From assembly GCF_016937515.1 (NCBI RefSeq), contig NZ_JAFHKM010000002.1:4459001-4523000 (forward strand): a stretch of 64,000 nt of DNA. Reading direction: 5' to 3'. Under the pieces are notes generated by a model. The model was not told where the DNA came from. It did not search any database and worked only from the letters and a program-made list of their open reading frames with translations. Both the position numbers and the translations under genes were made by a program. Each line of letters opens with the position of its first letter. Positions within the stretch are counted from its first letter, which is position 1. Source of the stretch: Cohnella algarum. GTDB lineage: Bacteria > Bacillota > Bacilli > Paenibacillales > Paenibacillaceae. Shown piece after piece: positions 17,498 to 57,759 of this stretch.

Positions 17498-17935
17498 GTG
17501 AGAGACAAACAAAACGAGCGATGGAGTACATACGAACCTTTTCATGTTGTTTTAGGAGACAAAAAGGTTGTAGACATTATCATCACCAACCATGCGCGCG
17601 CTCGTTGGGCCGACCGGGTACAAGCCGAGAAGGCGGATTATGCCGACATCGCCGAATTTTTGTGGCAATGTCTGAAGGAAGGCAGAATCGCTTCTTATTA
17701 TCGCAACGAGCAGGACGTTTATATGGTTGACGAAGATTTGATTTTCGTTGCAGAATTTGCCGTGTCGGACAAGGAAGTCGATTTGCTGGGCAACCCTCTT
17801 CACAAGATGATCGTCGTCACGTTTCTCGGACGGATGTCGGAAACGATGGAACTGCGAGATTTGAAAACGTATTACTCCTGGCTGAGACATTCCCGAAGAA
17901 TGACCTTGATCAAAAACAACCGCAAACGCCGCTGA
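17498..17935 (+). CDS. Conserved-looking protein of unknown function
   Basis: The 145-residue protein starts at GTG 17498 after GGAAGGGGA. It has an acidic and aromatic core with VVDIIITNHARARWADRV, IAEFLWQCLKEGRIASYY and HKMIVVTFLGR, and ends in a basic tail NNRKRR. The HARxRWxxR helix followed by strands is reminiscent of RelE-fold/DUF4258 proteins, but this is a weak resemblance and no antitoxin gene is next to it. There is no signal peptide or membrane segment. It has a candidate promoter and its own terminator, so it is probably a single-gene unit. I do not recognise a function. Confidence 0.7.
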   Translation: MRDKQNERWSTYEPFHVVLGDKKVVDIIITNHARARWADRVQAEKADYADIAEFLWQCLKEGRIASYYRNEQDVYMVDEDLIFVAEFAVSDKEVDLLGNPLHKMIVVTFLGRMSETMELRDLKTYYSWLRHSRRMTLIKNNRKRR

Positions 17936-29340: not shown

Positions 29341-29431
29341 ATTGGTCTTATTTTGACATGGATGGGCATGGATGAGGGGTTAAGCCTTGGCCGTGCCAAA
29401 GCGCCCGTGAAGGCTTGCGGGCACCTGGCGG

Positions 29432-29580
29432 GCGCCGTTCGGACGGGGCGGAACATTTCTTAGGCGACATCTCCCGCATCCGCTGAGAAGTCGGCTCGGC
29501 CCGCGGGGGTCTGGTTGAGTATGGTAACTTCTCCCCACCCGCCGTGCCCATGAGGCCACACCTATTTGAGTAATCCCCTA
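29432..29580. repeat. Array 1, left part: head sequence and first 52-bp unit
   Basis: The head (29432-29505) contains GCGCCGTTCGGAC, GGAACATTTC and TCGGCTCG, shared in order with 49443-49522. The first repeat unit starts at 29527; its TTGAGT lies at 29566, the same offset (39 nt) as in later units. The array is cut here by an IS110 element. The remaining part of the 523-bp gap after dapF (29341-29431) shows nothing I recognise. Confidence 0.65.
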
Positions 29581-29673
29581 TGACGTTACCGTCACCGCCA
29601 TAGATGAAAATGTGGTCGTACGCGTCCTTTTATCCTTCTTACATTCTGGACAAACAGATAATGAACAGATCAA

Positions 29674-29777
29674 AAGACGGAAATTTATTGGTCCCCCGTT
29701 GAGTAATCCGTCTTATTGCAGTTTGCGAGAGCCGCCCATTGTCCCTAAAGACGCGTATAAACTCTCTCCTTTAGGAC
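29674..29777 (+). ncRNA. Candidate bridge RNA segment in IS110 leader
   Basis: Two hairpins lie in the leader: AAGACGG (29674-29680) with CCGTCTT (29708-29714), and GTCCCTAAAG (29741-29750) with CTTTAGGAC (29769-29777). The first spans TTGAGTAATCC (29699-29709), also found in the left flank at 29566-29576. The second loop holds CGTATAAA (29754-29761), also found at the right end (31124-31131). These are the features expected of target and donor guides; the other two half-guides were not found. Confidence 0.4.
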
Positions 29778-29815
29778 TGCATGGTCTGTTTAATCTGAAA
29801 CAAGAGGGTGTTGGT

Positions 29816-31051
29816 ATGGATGCTGTACGTCAAATTTGTGCTGGTCTGGATGTCCATCAGGAAACCGTAGTTGCATGCGTCTTGTCGGGTTCGTTGGAAC
29901 ACAAACCCAAGTCCGAAATCCGCACGTTCGGTACCACTACCCGCGAATTGCTGGAGTTGCAGGATTGGCTCGAGGAGCGCGAGTGCCGAGAGGTAGCGAT
30001 GGAGAGCACCGGTGTGCTGTGGAAGCCAATATGGAACGTCCTGGAGTCCACCTGTGAATTGACTCTCGCCAATGCACGGCAGATTCAAAAGATGCCGGGA
30101 CGTAAAACCGACGTTCAAGACGCACAGTGGATCGCCCAGTTGCACCGCTGCGGGTTGGTACAACCCAGCATGGTCGCCCCACAAGAAATCCGTGAGCTTC
30201 GGGACTTGACGCGGTATCGTCGCAAACTGGTGCAGCAAACGACCTCCGAGAAGAACCGTGTTCACAAAATCTTGCAGGATGCCAACATCAAGCTCACCAC
30301 CTTTATGTCCGATTTGTTTGGCGTCTCCGGCCGGGCTTTATTAGACCGACTTGTCGACGGCGAGGTATTGGAGGAGGCGGAAGTTCGCCAGCTCGTCAAA
30401 TCCCAGTTGAAGAAGAAAGTCAAACAACTCATGGACGCACTGAATGGTAAACTGCTGAAACATCATCGCGAAATGATCAAGTACCACCTGGAGCACCTGA
30501 AGTTTCTCGAGGATCAAATTGGGCGGTTAGAAGAGAAAGTTCAAGCGCTGATCCAACCATACGAAGAAGAGGTGAAATTGCTAGATACGATTCCCGGCAT
30601 GGATCGCACAGCGGCAATCACGCTGCTGGCTGAAATTACGCCTAATGCGGCTAAGCATTTCTCGTCAGATGCCAAGCTGGCCTCTTGGGTCGGTGTAGCC
30701 CCTGGGAACAACGAAAGTGCAGGCGTAAAAAAAAAAGTTAAAGCCCGTAAAGGGAACAAACATGCAAAAGGGATCTTATGCCAAGCGGCATGGGCAAACG
30801 CTAGAAGCAGCAACCGAATTGGCGACTATTTCAGGAGGGTAAGAAAGCGCCGAGGTGACCAAAAAGCAGCTGTCGCCACAGCCCATCTGATTTTGCGAAT
30901 CGCCTATGCGATGCTTCGAGACCGGGTAAATTACCAGGAAATTGAATCCACCGTATTTCAGGAGTCGACCTCCAAGATGGTGGAACGTTTAACGAAACAG
31001 TTGCACCAGCTTGGATATAATGTCGATTTGAAACCTACTGGAACAACCTAA
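29816..31051 (+). CDS. IS110 family transposase (DEDD recombinase)
   Basis: The 411-residue protein has the N-terminal RuvC-like DEDD domain (CAGLDVHQETVVACVL, VAMESTGVLWKPIWNVL, KTDVQDAQWIAQLHRCG), a coiled-coil middle, and the C-terminal Tnp domain (LLDTIPGMDRTAAITLLAEI, LASWVGVAPGNNESAG) with the catalytic Ser region SAGVKKK. The reading frame is intact. ATG 29816 follows GAGGGTG; an in-frame upstream start at 29612 is rejected as it lies in the presumed RNA region. Composition is more AT-rich than neighbouring genes. Confidence 0.92.
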   Translation: MDAVRQICAGLDVHQETVVACVLSGSLEHKPKSEIRTFGTTTRELLELQDWLEERECREVAMESTGVLWKPIWNVLESTCELTLANARQIQKMPGRKTDVQDAQWIAQLHRCGLVQPSMVAPQEIRELRDLTRYRRKLVQQTTSEKNRVHKILQDANIKLTTFMSDLFGVSGRALLDRLVDGEVLEEAEVRQLVKSQLKKKVKQLMDALNGKLLKHHREMIKYHLEHLKFLEDQIGRLEEKVQALIQPYEEEVKLLDTIPGMDRTAAITLLAEITPNAAKHFSSDAKLASWVGVAPGNNESAGVKKKVKARKGNKHAKGILCQAAWANARSSNRIGDYFRRVRKRRGDQKAAVATAHLILRIAYAMLRDRVNYQEIESTVFQESTSKMVERLTKQLHQLGYNVDLKPTGTT

Positions 31052-31136
31052 ATTTTAAAAAAATTAGGGTTGAGATTTCGGGGTAGTGGGTCTTTTTTTT
31101 GCCTTCTTACGGCACTTCATTTTCGTATAAAAAAAT

Positions 31137-31241
31137 ACACATCTCAATGGTTAAGCGTCTGAAAGCCACATCCAATTGAGTCACCGTTACTCATCTTTGA
31201 CCGGCCGAGCGCCTGGAGCCGCACCTATTTGAGCAATAATT
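31137..31241. repeat. Array 1, middle part: two 52-bp units
   Basis: Units start at 31137 (ACACATCTCAATGG) and 31189 (ACTCATCTTTGACCGG), 52 bp apart. The second is cut at its TTGAGCAATAATT by the next insertion sequence. Confidence 0.75.
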
Positions 31242-33031
31242 AGGGCTTGCTGAACGCTTGAAAAACCGACAAAAACCGCATAACCACAAGGATTTTGAGG
31301 CCGATTTGTCGAAATCATATGCAAAGGAAATGTTCGAAAGCAGCCCAAAACCCTTGCAGATGGAGTGACGAAAATGTTCAAGCCGACCGCGCACCTCGAA
31401 AATCAATTGCTCCTGCCCGGCGATTTCTTTCTGCCCTTCGGCGGAAAGCTGGACGAAGAGAATCGCTGGGTCCGGTTGGCGCGATTGGTGCCGTGGGCGG
31501 CGGCGGAGCAGAAATACGGTCAGTTCTTCAAAAACACCTTTCGCGGCCAACAAACGATCAGTCTGCGAACGGGGCTCGGCGCGCTCCTCATTCAGGAGCG
31601 CATGCAACTGACCGACAGAGAGACGGTGGAGTCGATCAGCGAAAATCCCTACATGCAATACTTCATCGGTCTGTCCGGCTTCACAATGAAGCCGCCGTTT
31701 CATCCTTCGATGATGACGCATTTCCGTAAGCGTCTGACAGACGTGCTGGCCGAGCTGAACGAGATCGTCGCCATCGAAGGCGCGAATGAAACGAAAGACG
31801 ATGACAACGATGGTCCCGGCATAAGCGGCGGCGGGAAACGCAAGCGGAAGGCGCCTCATCAAACGACGGACACGGCCAAGATCGAGCAACAAGTGCTGTT
31901 CGGAGACACGCCGATGGAATCGACCGCGCAACGGTCTGCTACGGCGCAGACCGTTGAAAGGGCAGCGCCACTTGAAGCGACCGAACGGGATGTTTATGAG
32001 GCGGAGGCTTCCGCCGCCGTGTCGGAAGCGCCGGAGCAACCGAATCAAGGAACGATGCTGGCGGACGCCACCTGCGCGCCAGCGGATGTAGCGTATCCGA
32101 CCGATCTGAATCTGTTGAACGAAGCGCGGGAGAAACTCGAAGCGATCATCGATACGCTGCATGAACGGGTGATCGGACAAACGGCGAAACCGCGTACCTA
32201 CCGGGAGAAAGCGCGAAAGCAGTTTCTGGCGGTATCCAAGCAGCGCCGGCCGGGACCGAAGGTGATCCGCCGCGCGATCCGCCGGCAACTGGGATTTGTG
32301 GGACGGAACCTTGCCATCATCGCCGAGCAAGTGAAGACGCAGCCGCTTACGCGTTTGAGCCGCAAAGCGTATCGCGATCTACTGGTGATTCAGGAACTGT
32401 ACCGTCAGCAGCTTCACATGTACCAGAGGCGATCGCACCAGATCGACGGCCGGATCGTGAGCATCCATCAGCCGCATGTAAGGCCGATCGTGCGCGGGAA
32501 AGCGAAGGCGCGGGTAGAGTTCGGTGCGAAGCTCGCCGTCAGCATGACGAAGGGCTACGCATTCCTGGATCGGGCGTCCTGGGACAACTTCAACGAGAGT
32601 ACCACGCTCATCGAGACGATCGAGAACTACCGCCGACGCCTCGGCTATTATCCGGCCGTCGTGCAGGCGGATCAAATCTATCGCACACGCGAGAACCGGA
32701 ACTTCTGCAAGCAGCATGGCATTCGGCTCAGCGGTCCGGCTTTAGGACGGCCGCGGAAGGACGGTTCGACGAACGAGCAACGGAACCAGGACAAACGGGA
32801 TGCCGGCGAACGCAACGCCATCGAAGGTAAATTTGGAGAAGGCAAGCGCAAATATGGGCTTGGCCGTATTCGCGCGCGTCTCGCGCAGACGAGCCTGTCC
32901 GCCATCACGCTGCAACTGCTGGTGATGAACCTGGAACGCAGGCTGCGCGTTCTTTTTGGCTTCCTATTTGCCATCCTGCTCCGCCGACGCCTCAGCCTGA
33001 ATTTCGGGTAAAGTATCGTTCAGCAAACCCT
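31242..33031 (+). mobile_element. IS5/IS1182-like insertion sequence, complete
   Basis: The element is about 1790 bp. Terminal inverted repeats AGGGCTTGCTGAACG (31242-31256) and AGGGTTTGCTGAACG (reverse of 33017-33031) match at 14 of 15 positions. AATT on both sides (31238-31241, 33032-33035) is a possible 4-bp target duplication. Removing the element and one AATT restores the 52-bp repeat phase exactly. Confidence 0.82.
31374..33011 (+). CDS. IS5/IS1182-type transposase (DUF772 plus DDE domain)
   Basis: This 545-residue transposase has an N-terminal DUF772-like region (EQKYGQFFKNTF...LGALLIQERMQLTDRE, NPYMQYFIGL), a long charged, low-complexity insert (residues about 135-230), and a DDE-type C-terminal half (GAKLAVSMTKGYAFLDRASWD, VVQADQIYRTRENRNFCK, DAGERNAIEGKFGEGKRKYGL). 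ATG 31374 has GGAG 8 nt upstream; GTG 31365 is an alternative. The frame is intact and lies within matching inverted repeats. Confidence 0.88.
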   Translation: MFKPTAHLENQLLLPGDFFLPFGGKLDEENRWVRLARLVPWAAAEQKYGQFFKNTFRGQQTISLRTGLGALLIQERMQLTDRETVESISENPYMQYFIGLSGFTMKPPFHPSMMTHFRKRLTDVLAELNEIVAIEGANETKDDDNDGPGISGGGKRKRKAPHQTTDTAKIEQQVLFGDTPMESTAQRSATAQTVERAAPLEATERDVYEAEASAAVSEAPEQPNQGTMLADATCAPADVAYPTDLNLLNEAREKLEAIIDTLHERVIGQTAKPRTYREKARKQFLAVSKQRRPGPKVIRRAIRRQLGFVGRNLAIIAEQVKTQPLTRLSRKAYRDLLVIQELYRQQLHMYQRRSHQIDGRIVSIHQPHVRPIVRGKAKARVEFGAKLAVSMTKGYAFLDRASWDNFNESTTLIETIENYRRRLGYYPAVVQADQIYRTRENRNFCKQHGIRLSGPALGRPRKDGSTNEQRNQDKRDAGERNAIEGKFGEGKRKYGLGRIRARLAQTSLSAITLQLLVMNLERRLRVLFGFLFAILLRRRLSLNFG

Positions 33032-33035
33032 AATT

Positions 33036-33163
33036 ACTCATCTCGACTGGCTAAGCGCCTGGATCGACATCCAATTGAGTCACCGTTACTCATCTTGACC
33101 GGCCGAGCGCCTGGAGCCGCACGCAGTTGAGTCACCATTACTCATCTCGCCTATGGACGCACG
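33036..33163. repeat. Array 1, right part: two full 52-bp units and a partial
   Basis: ACTCAT unit starts at 33036, 33088 and 33140, exactly 52 bp apart. Each full unit carries TTGAGTCACC(G/A)TTACTCATCT, a short inverted repeat with a 7-nt linker. Confidence 0.85.
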
Positions 33164-33186
33164 CTTGAGTGCCGCAAATATTCGGG

Positions 33187-49326: not shown

Positions 49327-49442
49327 ATAATATTCTCTGTCCCGGGGACGTCTATGTCGTTTTGCTTGTTTTTACTTGAAATATAAAGAAGGTTTTATTC
49401 TTTCGTCGCGAAGCCGACCGAGAAATCTTTCTGGACATTTGC

Positions 49443-49522
49443 GCGCCGTTCGGACAGCGGGAACATTTCCCCTTTGATGTTTTTTCCATCTGCGCCGCAA
49501 ATCGGCTCGCCCTTCCGCGGAT
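49443..49522. repeat. Head sequence of repeat array 2
   Basis: GCGCCGTTCGGAC, GGGAACATTTC and TCGGCTCGCCC occur in the same order and spacing as in 29432-29505. The bases between 49327 and 49442 show nothing I recognise. Confidence 0.6.
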
Positions 49523-49538
49523 CCGATGGAGTCGTAGT

Positions 49539-49808
49539 TGCTCAACTTAACCGATTAAACGCATGTGACCGCACTCAGTTGGGTAAATATGACTCATTTC
49601 AACCGGATAGACGCATGTGACCGCACTCAGTTGGGTAAATATGACTCATTTCAACCGGATAGACGCATATGACCGCACTCAGTTGGGTAAATATGACTCA
49701 TTTCAACCGGATAGACGCATATGACCGCACTCAGTTGGGTAAATATGACTCATCTGAACCGGCTAGACACATAGGCCGGAGTCAATTGGGTAAATATGAC
49801 CCGTCTCA
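49539..49808. repeat. Array 2: five 52-bp tandem units
   Basis: Units start near 49539 and at 49591, 49643, 49695 and 49747 (period 52 bp, last one 51). The three central units (49591-49746) are almost identical (ACTCATTTCAACCGGATAG ... CACTCAGTTGGGTAAATAT). Outer units are more diverged. No unique spacers are present. Confidence 0.9.
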
Positions 49809-56914: not shown

Positions 56915-57062
56915 CCGGTTGAGTCGCGGTGACGCAACTCAACCCGCCAAACGCAAACAACCGTACGCAGTTGAGTGAAAATTACCCATCTCAACTCCTC
57001 GGCAAGCACGTTACCGCTCCAATTGAGTCGTGGTGACACAACTCATCTCACAAATGCTACTC
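56915..57062. repeat. Array 3: diverged copies of the 52-bp repeat family
   Basis: GGTTGAGT...ACTCAACC, AGTTGAGT...ATCTCAACT and AATTGAGTCGTGGTGACACAACTCA-type inverted repeats follow each other between 56915 and 57062 with spacings near 47-57 bp. Sequences are related to arrays 1 and 2. The rest of the gap to 57378 shows no gene I can support. Confidence 0.65.
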
Positions 57063-57587: not shown

Positions 57588-57622
57588 CGAAAAGGATAAA
57601 TCGTACGGACAACCGAAAATCG

Positions 57623-57713
57623 CCCCCGGGAGCTTAGGGAACTATGCTGAGAGGAAAGCTGATCCGCTTTCGACCGGATAACCTGATCTGGATAATTCCA
57701 GCGTAGGAAGGTG
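57623..57713 (+). ncRNA. TPP riboswitch (THI element)
   Basis: Conserved blocks are present in order: GGGAGCTTAGGGA, CTGAGAGG, GACCGGATAACCTGATC-type core (ACCTGATCTGGATAATTCC) and AGCGTAGGAAGG. It lies between a promoter and an intrinsic terminator, upstream of thiamine transport genes. Confidence 0.95.
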
Positions 57714-57759
57714 GCCGCAATCGCGACGGTTTCGTTGCGTTTGCCTAAGTGCAGCTTGT

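Follow-up and report, generated by a model that had tools for sequence, protein, structure and literature searches.

Probable RNA-guided insertion of an IS110-family element into a high-copy palindromic repeat of Cohnella algarum

An insertion sequence of the IS110 family and another of the IS5 family interrupt a tandem array of repeats of about 52 bp in Cohnella algarum, within a stretch of 64,000 nucleotides of its 6.2-Mb genome (contig NZ_JAFHKM010000002.1, here called C2, positions 4459001-4523000; hereafter the window, whose own numbering is used unless C2 is given). We consider it probable that the IS110 element was led into the palindrome of the repeat by a guide RNA and that the IS5-family element landed there separately. 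Computational comparison reveals a common insertion point in all five near-full IS110 copies of the host genome, as well as guide-target agreement that covaries across relatives of the element.

On the chromosome, intergenic tandem arrays make up a high-copy family, in which the unit of about 52 bp contains the imperfect palindrome TTGAGT-N7-ACTCAT. A bridge RNA from the left end of the IS110 element itself would lead the element to this palindrome, its 9-nt guide GTTGAGTAA reading the left target together with the core and its 5-nt guide AAATT reading the right target. Recombination would occur at an AA core in the linker of a TTGAGTAAAATTTACTCAT unit, with insertion after TTGAGTAA. The IS5-family element would have entered a neighbouring unit on its own, most likely because an A+T-rich intergenic linker is a harmless target.

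IS110 copies share one insertion point

The IS110-family element of the window measures 1556 bp (29574..31129, + strand), with its ends taken from comparison of the five copies. It encodes a recombinase in an open reading frame of 411 amino acids (29816..31051, +), in which the DEDD N-terminal domain PF01548 (E 8.7e-28) and the C-terminal Transposase_20 domain PF02371 (E 6.1e-19) are recognizable, and its match to NF033542 (E 2.6e-78) scores 263.5 bits relative to a cut-off of 140. The ends of the element, 242 nt on the left and 78 nt on the right, show the long-left, short-right pattern of the IS110 group.

A search of the genome with the DNA of the element returned nine rows, comprising five near-full copies, three short or distant pieces, and a 32-nt match to a spacer of a clustered regularly interspaced short palindromic repeat (CRISPR) locus. 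Every near-full copy lies inside a TTGAGT-family repeat and has the left flank xTGAGTAA^TCCCC (the caret marks the junction). All four copies with an intact right end also agree at the right junction, which reads CGTATA^AA, then the rest of the linker, and then ACTCAT or a one-base variant of it; the fifth copy stands in the opposite orientation and has lost its right end. In the window, the insertion point follows the second linker nucleotide of unit 2, and the four copies having both ends display the AA core without a longer target duplication. Given these common flanks, the target is therefore TGAGT-AA, with AA as the likely core. The five copies occupy only units whose linker starts with AA; palindromic units with linkers starting with CG are also present, in alternation, at loci L234 and L237, two of the other four host arrays, and the element leaves them unused.

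In one competing account, the arrays are intergenic DNA that simply tolerates any insertion, and both elements are there by chance. It is the most economical reading of the lone IS5-type insertion, and it agrees with the location of the arrays, which mostly lie behind genes: 58 of 67 have a co-directional gene upstream and 40 of 68 a co-directional gene downstream (427 of 590 for called genes overall, the flanking genes having been called with a simple codon score). However, five of five IS110 copies at one nucleotide position is beyond neutral chance, which leaves this account very improbable.

Two further observations concern the element in this host. At locus L064 (C2:2338910-2338999), a solitary second IS110 right end stands in tandem behind a full copy, as if it were the remnant of a lost neighbouring copy. 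The CRISPR spacer (locus L252, C2:2852289-2852320, in a locus whose repeats start at C2:2851990) has exactly the sequence with which the element begins, 32 nt counted from the AA core (window 29572-29603); judged by this identity, the host bears a spacer that matches its own IS110.

Guides covary with targets among IS110 relatives

The left end of the element (29574..29815, +) contains a putative bridge RNA, recognized by a fold test and by alignment with six relatives. None of 200 shuffles folds as well as the stretch 29567-29816 itself (z -3.54), and the alignment reveals conserved blocks flanking a loop that varies, in the approximate form GACGG-[5 nt]-TATTGG...CCC-[9 nt]-CCGTC. Of the two putative guides, the one for the right target (29681..29685, +) is complementary, read in reverse, to that target, AATTT, and the one for the left target (29698..29706, +) has the same sequence as the left target and core together; both covary in relatives. 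This pattern was first read in the window element and in its relatives from genomes G006 and G020, and then in relatives obtained by searching 295 genomes of the family, 18 of which matched at E 1e-120.

Agreement of the right guide with its own target reaches 5/5 positions in G006, G247 and G319 and 4/5 in G020 and in the genus labelled g13. The left guide agrees at 6 to 8 of its 9 positions in relatives and at all 9 in the best copy of the C. algarum genome. Across nine elements, the mean scores are 7.3 of 9 and 4.1 of 5 on own targets versus 4.2 and 1.6 on the targets of others. When guides and targets were permuted among seven representatives, with g13 (14 of 24 loci) entered as one element, the true pairing was the sole arrangement of 5040 to reach the observed total.

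Several points nevertheless weigh against this interpretation. The guide frame was fixed only once the first matches were known. The right guide of G185 matches its own target at just 1/5 positions, yet it matches the C. algarum target at 5/5, and the left guide of G006 scores 7/9 on its own target and equally 7/9 on that of C. algarum. The left targets of G020 and genus g13 are similar to each other. Five elements were left out of the permutation: by eye, the right side agrees in part or not at all in G032, G176 and G189, G343 has a left end that is apparently cut short, and G315 is without a right flank. Even in C. algarum, agreement with the right target is 3/5 for the window copy and for the copy at 3601030. 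Finally, in all elements read, the short guide lies 5' and the long guide 3', which is the reverse of the order in IS621, an IS110 element whose long guide is placed on the 5' side of the loop (PMC11208160). The reversal could be genuine, or it could stem from an error in our loop model. Judging from sequence, the left-end RNA would be made, fold in this manner and act as a guide, and AA would be the core that is recombined.

The initial annotation had looked upon the same elements in relatives lacking the array as evidence against a role for the repeat. Some relatives do possess related IS110s without this array, but their guides differ and fit their own sites. Because the guides there fit other sequences, these elements constitute the best evidence for guidance.

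The interrupted array and the IS5-family element

The array that hosts both elements (29515-33148, +) lies between dapF and a homocysteine S-methyltransferase/MTHFR gene and consists of six units of 51-53 bp, the last of them incomplete. By eye, a leader-like segment upstream (29412..29514, +) resembles the segment that precedes a second array of the window, at about 49440-49526. Direct reading, backed by a script check for units 1 to 4, gives a degenerate unit 1 (29515..29565, +), followed by the left part of unit 2 (29566..29573, +), which holds TTGAGT and the core AA and thus the left target, as copy comparison also indicates. The right part of unit 2 (31130..31175, +) resumes beyond the IS110 element with the second AA core (31130-31131), and its ACTCAT half reads ACACAT. 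Unit 3 (31176..31228, +) is 53 bp long. Unit 4 is again divided into a left part with TTGAGC and AATAATTA (31229..31242, +) and a right part with a second TAATTA (33031..33074, +), and units 5 (33075..33126, +) and 6 (33127..33148, +) complete the array.

This reading and the script bear out the initial annotation in its claim that a 52-bp array is split by two elements in the 7-nt linker. Two of its descriptions need adjustment. The phase that it described as constant is kept at 29527, 31137, 31189, 33036, 33088 and 33140, positions that correspond to the ACTCAT halves of the units, but with a variation of 1 bp (52, 52, 53, 52, 52). Likewise, TTGAGT-N7-ACTCAT is the general pattern rather than a feature of every unit, as units 1, 2 and 4 are degenerate. 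The TTGAGT anchors stand at 29515 (degenerate unit), 29566, 31176, 31229 (TTGAGC), 33075 and 33127; their spacings are 51, 52, 53, 52 and 52 after removal of 1558 bp (the IS110 element plus one AA core) and 1794 bp (the IS5-family element plus one TAATTA).

The IS5-family element (31243..33030, +) is 1788 bp long if its target duplication is TAATTA, and it has a terminal inverted repeat. Its transposase reading frame of 548 amino acids (31365..33011, +) matches NF033578 (E 1.2e-119) with 400.1 bits relative to a cut-off of 275. As TAATTA, the duplication spans linker nucleotides 3-7 and the next A of unit 4, although TAATTA, AATT and AT fit equally well because the target itself is palindromic. 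No second full copy was found in the genome, and the right end of a remnant at C2:5924442-5924719 lies outside any repeat. Elsewhere in the genus there are four matches, all partial, with 63-73% identity, and none is an informative relative. With one full copy, target preference cannot be judged, and therefore we claim no targeting for this element; the candidate role of a second repeat-seeker was rejected on this single insertion and the absence of an informative relative. Clustering of independent insertions of unrelated elements in the linker, which the initial annotation put forward as a check, thus finds no support, with one IS5-type insertion and a remnant located elsewhere.

The palindrome might be thought to attract elements by its structure. 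The 67 arrays analysed contain 231 distinct units, of which 142 have complementary bases at linker positions 1 and 7 (versus 107.8) and 171 at positions 2 and 6 (versus 110), both counts exceeding those of all 2000 shuffles. Linker pair 3/5 has no excess complementarity, and the variable stem pair 4/16 is at the shuffle mean in these units. The excess at 1/7 and 2/6 means that the dyad symmetry reaches two positions into the linker, and such symmetry could fit a protein site or a hairpin alike. Wobble asymmetry was considered as a mark of a single-stranded hairpin (149 G.T versus 86 A.C) but was unused, as one position pair drives it.

The initial annotation had suggested a structural landing pad, which in its strong form would be a hairpin or cruciform loop that attracts unrelated transposases irrespective of sequence. 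The pairing of linker positions 1/7 and 2/6 agrees with this suggestion, as do the presence of both elements in the linker and the finding that the IS110 of G006 is also within a tandem array. Indeed, the repeat does serve as a landing site for IS110, at one exact position of AA linkers. However, this confinement and the covariation of guides with targets among relatives argue for sequence guidance instead of structure, and the IS5-type insertion is a single case. We therefore regard attraction by structure as highly unlikely.

Two more arrays of the family are present in the window. The second (49527..49805, +) has a period of 52 and comprises a degenerate unit followed by five good units, and the third (56919..57042, +) is degenerate and has three units. 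A thiamine pyrophosphate (TPP) riboswitch lies at 57616-57726, about 570 bp past the third array, and an Rfam scan of the window at gathering thresholds returned nothing besides it.

The repeat family in the genome and the genus

Exact matches to TTGRGTN7ACTCAT number 302 in the host genome (149 and 153 on the two strands), a frequency well above chance given that a reversed control pattern yields 0. A few copies may be counted twice, because the two ends of C2 (about 1-21700 and 6173200-6194872) apparently overlap by some 21.7 kb, judging from equal matches at 17761 and 6190975. Among 37 Cohnella genomes, four have at least 30 palindrome copies (302, 109, 35 and 30) and 33 have 0-2; the named carriers are C. 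fermenti, C. thailandensis and Cohnella sp. AR92.

We examined 68 arrays of C. algarum, drawn from 67 fetched stretches, 20 regular samples and the window, which together hold 262 of the 302 exact copies, with 40 outside the fetched stretches. Two unit types alternate in many arrays, for example with linkers AAAAATG and CGTGGCG. At a 1% control threshold, the best leader motif precedes 14 of 68 arrays compared with 2 of 600 control stretches, and leader motifs overall precede 6-14 arrays compared with 1-5 controls. The window array is absent from the 14 because it entered the test from its later units.

Array polarity and replication

In this species, the polarity of the arrays is tied to replication, and its sign is not conserved in relatives. 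The dnaA gene is at 1,706,405, where the GC skew flips, and the skew flips back between 4.70 and 4.96 Mb. Relative to the fork that these points define, 64 of 68 arrays point with its movement, with an ambiguous array (4177763) and a mixed array (2356716) counted as exceptions. So do most individual units when ties are excluded (166/172 on the left arm and 218/232 on the right arm), as do 24 of the 25 arrays that lie in convergent regions and 8 of 9 that have a head-on upstream gene. In another 52-bp family, GGTGCGCTACAT, 6 of 8 multi-copy arrays are with the fork. In the array at C2:813415-813538, one unit is opposite in orientation to its two neighbours.

Polarity in relatives was judged from local GC skew. 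Among the matches listed, 6 of 7 arrays in G004 and 7 of 8 in G015 (one with weak skew) are against the fork, and G020 is mixed, with 2 with the fork and 3 against. Named loci of 8 kb, which are partly the same places, give 3 of 3 against the fork in AR92, 7 with and 4 against in C. fermenti, and in C. thailandensis an orientation against the fork where the skew is clear, with one locus mixed. A fixed functional polarity, of the type of Chi or FtsK orienting polar sequences (KOPS), was rejected as a genus rule because the sign differs among C. algarum, G004, G015 and G020. A C-rich strand facing the fork was likewise rejected as the common factor: it is found in 48 of 61 arrays of the TTGAGT family here, but in 2 of 10 of other families here and in 20 of 37 in other Cohnella.

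The fork orientation could be explained if the repeats themselves were mobile and single-stranded at integration, in the manner of repetitive extragenic palindrome (REP) elements, which are moved by a Y1 transposase, or of IS200/IS605 elements, which insert on the lagging-strand template. The strong alignment in C. algarum, including convergent regions and places with a head-on upstream gene, speaks for such mobility. However, the Y1 transposase domain Y1_Tnp (PF01797) is absent in two of the four carriers (G004 and G015) and present in 10 of 33 non-carriers, so no association exists. In addition, the opposite or mixed signs in G004, G015 and G020 do not agree with it, no element ends were found in the arrays, and leader motifs precede a minority of them. 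We therefore judge mobility of the repeats to be improbable.

A period shared by unrelated arrays

Arrays of at least three copies with a period of at least 30 were counted in regular samples (20 of 12 kb from C. algarum and 20 of 20 kb from five other Cohnella genomes). A period of 51-52 bp occurs in 11 of the 19 arrays of these six genomes, 5 of 8 in C. algarum, including two of the TTGAGT family, and 6 of 11 in the five others. The latter six come from G024 and G016 only; the sample of G003 has one array at period 50, and those of G006 and G010 have none. Samples of other genera (ten genomes from nine genera) gave 1 of 3 arrays at 51-52 bp in 400 kb, and IS110-bearing genomes of three other genera (six genomes) gave 2 of 5, also in 400 kb. 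When stretches fetched otherwise are included, there are 41 non-TTGAGT arrays in other Cohnella, 25 of them at 51-52 bp, although some of the 41 belong to one family and one (L279) resembles a diverged TTGAGT array. The arrays with this period differ widely in sequence, with and without palindromes. They occur in stretches of Cohnella and of genus g13 (for example L131, L142, L223, L328, L329, L338, L398 and L399) and often have superperiods of 102-104 bp.

Relatives of the IS110 element also meet this period. Those of G006 and G032 adjoin 51-bp arrays. The related IS110 of genus g13 targets the palindrome ATGTAATCGAAAAACCGATTACAT, which is repeated there with a spacing of 51 bp; right-flank self-identity at lag 51 is at least 70% in 3 of 14 g13 loci and at least 44% in 6 of 14.

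Because 51-52 bp fits five turns of DNA, helical phasing is an obvious idea. The arrays might thus be phased protein-binding sites, five helical turns apart and kept by selection, for example for a nucleoid protein or gyrase. The period common to unrelated array families, the dyad symmetry of the TTGAGT family, and a location behind genes like that of bacterial interspersed mosaic elements (BIMEs) are all in keeping with this idea. However, the TTGAGT family reaches high copy in only 4 of 37 genomes of the genus, and a significant inverted repeat is present in just 12 of 37 other arrays of 50-53 bp, one of which was counted twice (L145 and L244), versus 3 of 47 with other periods. The latter comparison led us to reject the palindrome as the cause of the period, and we consider phased binding sites unlikely on balance, although the least so of the alternatives weighed here.

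Relation to known systems and significance

Targeting of interspersed palindromes by IS110 elements, as with IS621 and REP, is already established (PMC1525189, PMC11208160). The Cohnella element resembles these REP-targeting IS110s in its DEDD/Transposase_20 recombinase, its long left and short right ends, its insertion at a dinucleotide core within a high-copy intergenic palindrome, and the covariation of its guides with targets. Unlike IS621, it has another target repeat, an AA core, and a short guide 5' of the long one; this order deviates from an IS621 feature that is not known to define the IS110 group. Insertion of IS621/IS110 elements in REP palindromes was reportedly described by Choi in 2003. 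The IS5-family element is like others of its family in its transposase, which scores above the curated cut-off, and in its terminal inverted repeats, but here it has only one full copy.

By analogy, the arrays themselves appear BIME- or BOX-like in kind. BIMEs are located behind genes, and BOX elements of Streptococcus pneumoniae consist of a leader and then a variable number of short tandem units. With REP and BIME sequences, the Cohnella repeats have in common high-copy intergenic palindromes, regular arrays mostly behind genes, alternating unit types, and use as IS110 targets. They differ in that their units run head to tail, with few minority-strand units within arrays (left arm 6/172, right arm 14/232), whereas BIME units alternate in orientation; furthermore, they have no association with a Y1 transposase (REP-associated tyrosine transposase, RAYT), and their fixed period of 51-52 bp is common to unrelated arrays. 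The likeness to BOX lies in a leader followed by tandem units, but leader motifs occur in a minority of Cohnella arrays and no defined ends were found. No report of 51-52-bp arrays or of fork-oriented arrays of this kind was found among the titles and opening lines of abstracts covered, and passages of PMC9426551 and PMC3119063 have no bearing on such arrays.

A broader proposal can be offered only tentatively, as we think it somewhat less probable than its converse. In Cohnella and some relatives, a process or constraint might build or maintain intergenic arrays with a unit fixed at 51-52 bp, about five helical turns, whatever their sequence, and replication might set their polarity in one species or more. 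Bridge-RNA elements of one clade, with a guide loop reversed relative to IS621, might follow such repeats between species by rewriting their guides.

What should surprise a specialist is the shared period of unrelated arrays together with their polarity relative to the fork. The related recombinases would form a natural series of RNA-guided enzymes whose guides fit different host repeats and whose loop is seemingly reversed relative to IS621, a series that bears on the evolution of target choice and on the design of such tools. That arrays of unrelated sequence have this period, and that in one species they are aligned with replication, points to some rule by which the chromosome is organised or repeats are formed.

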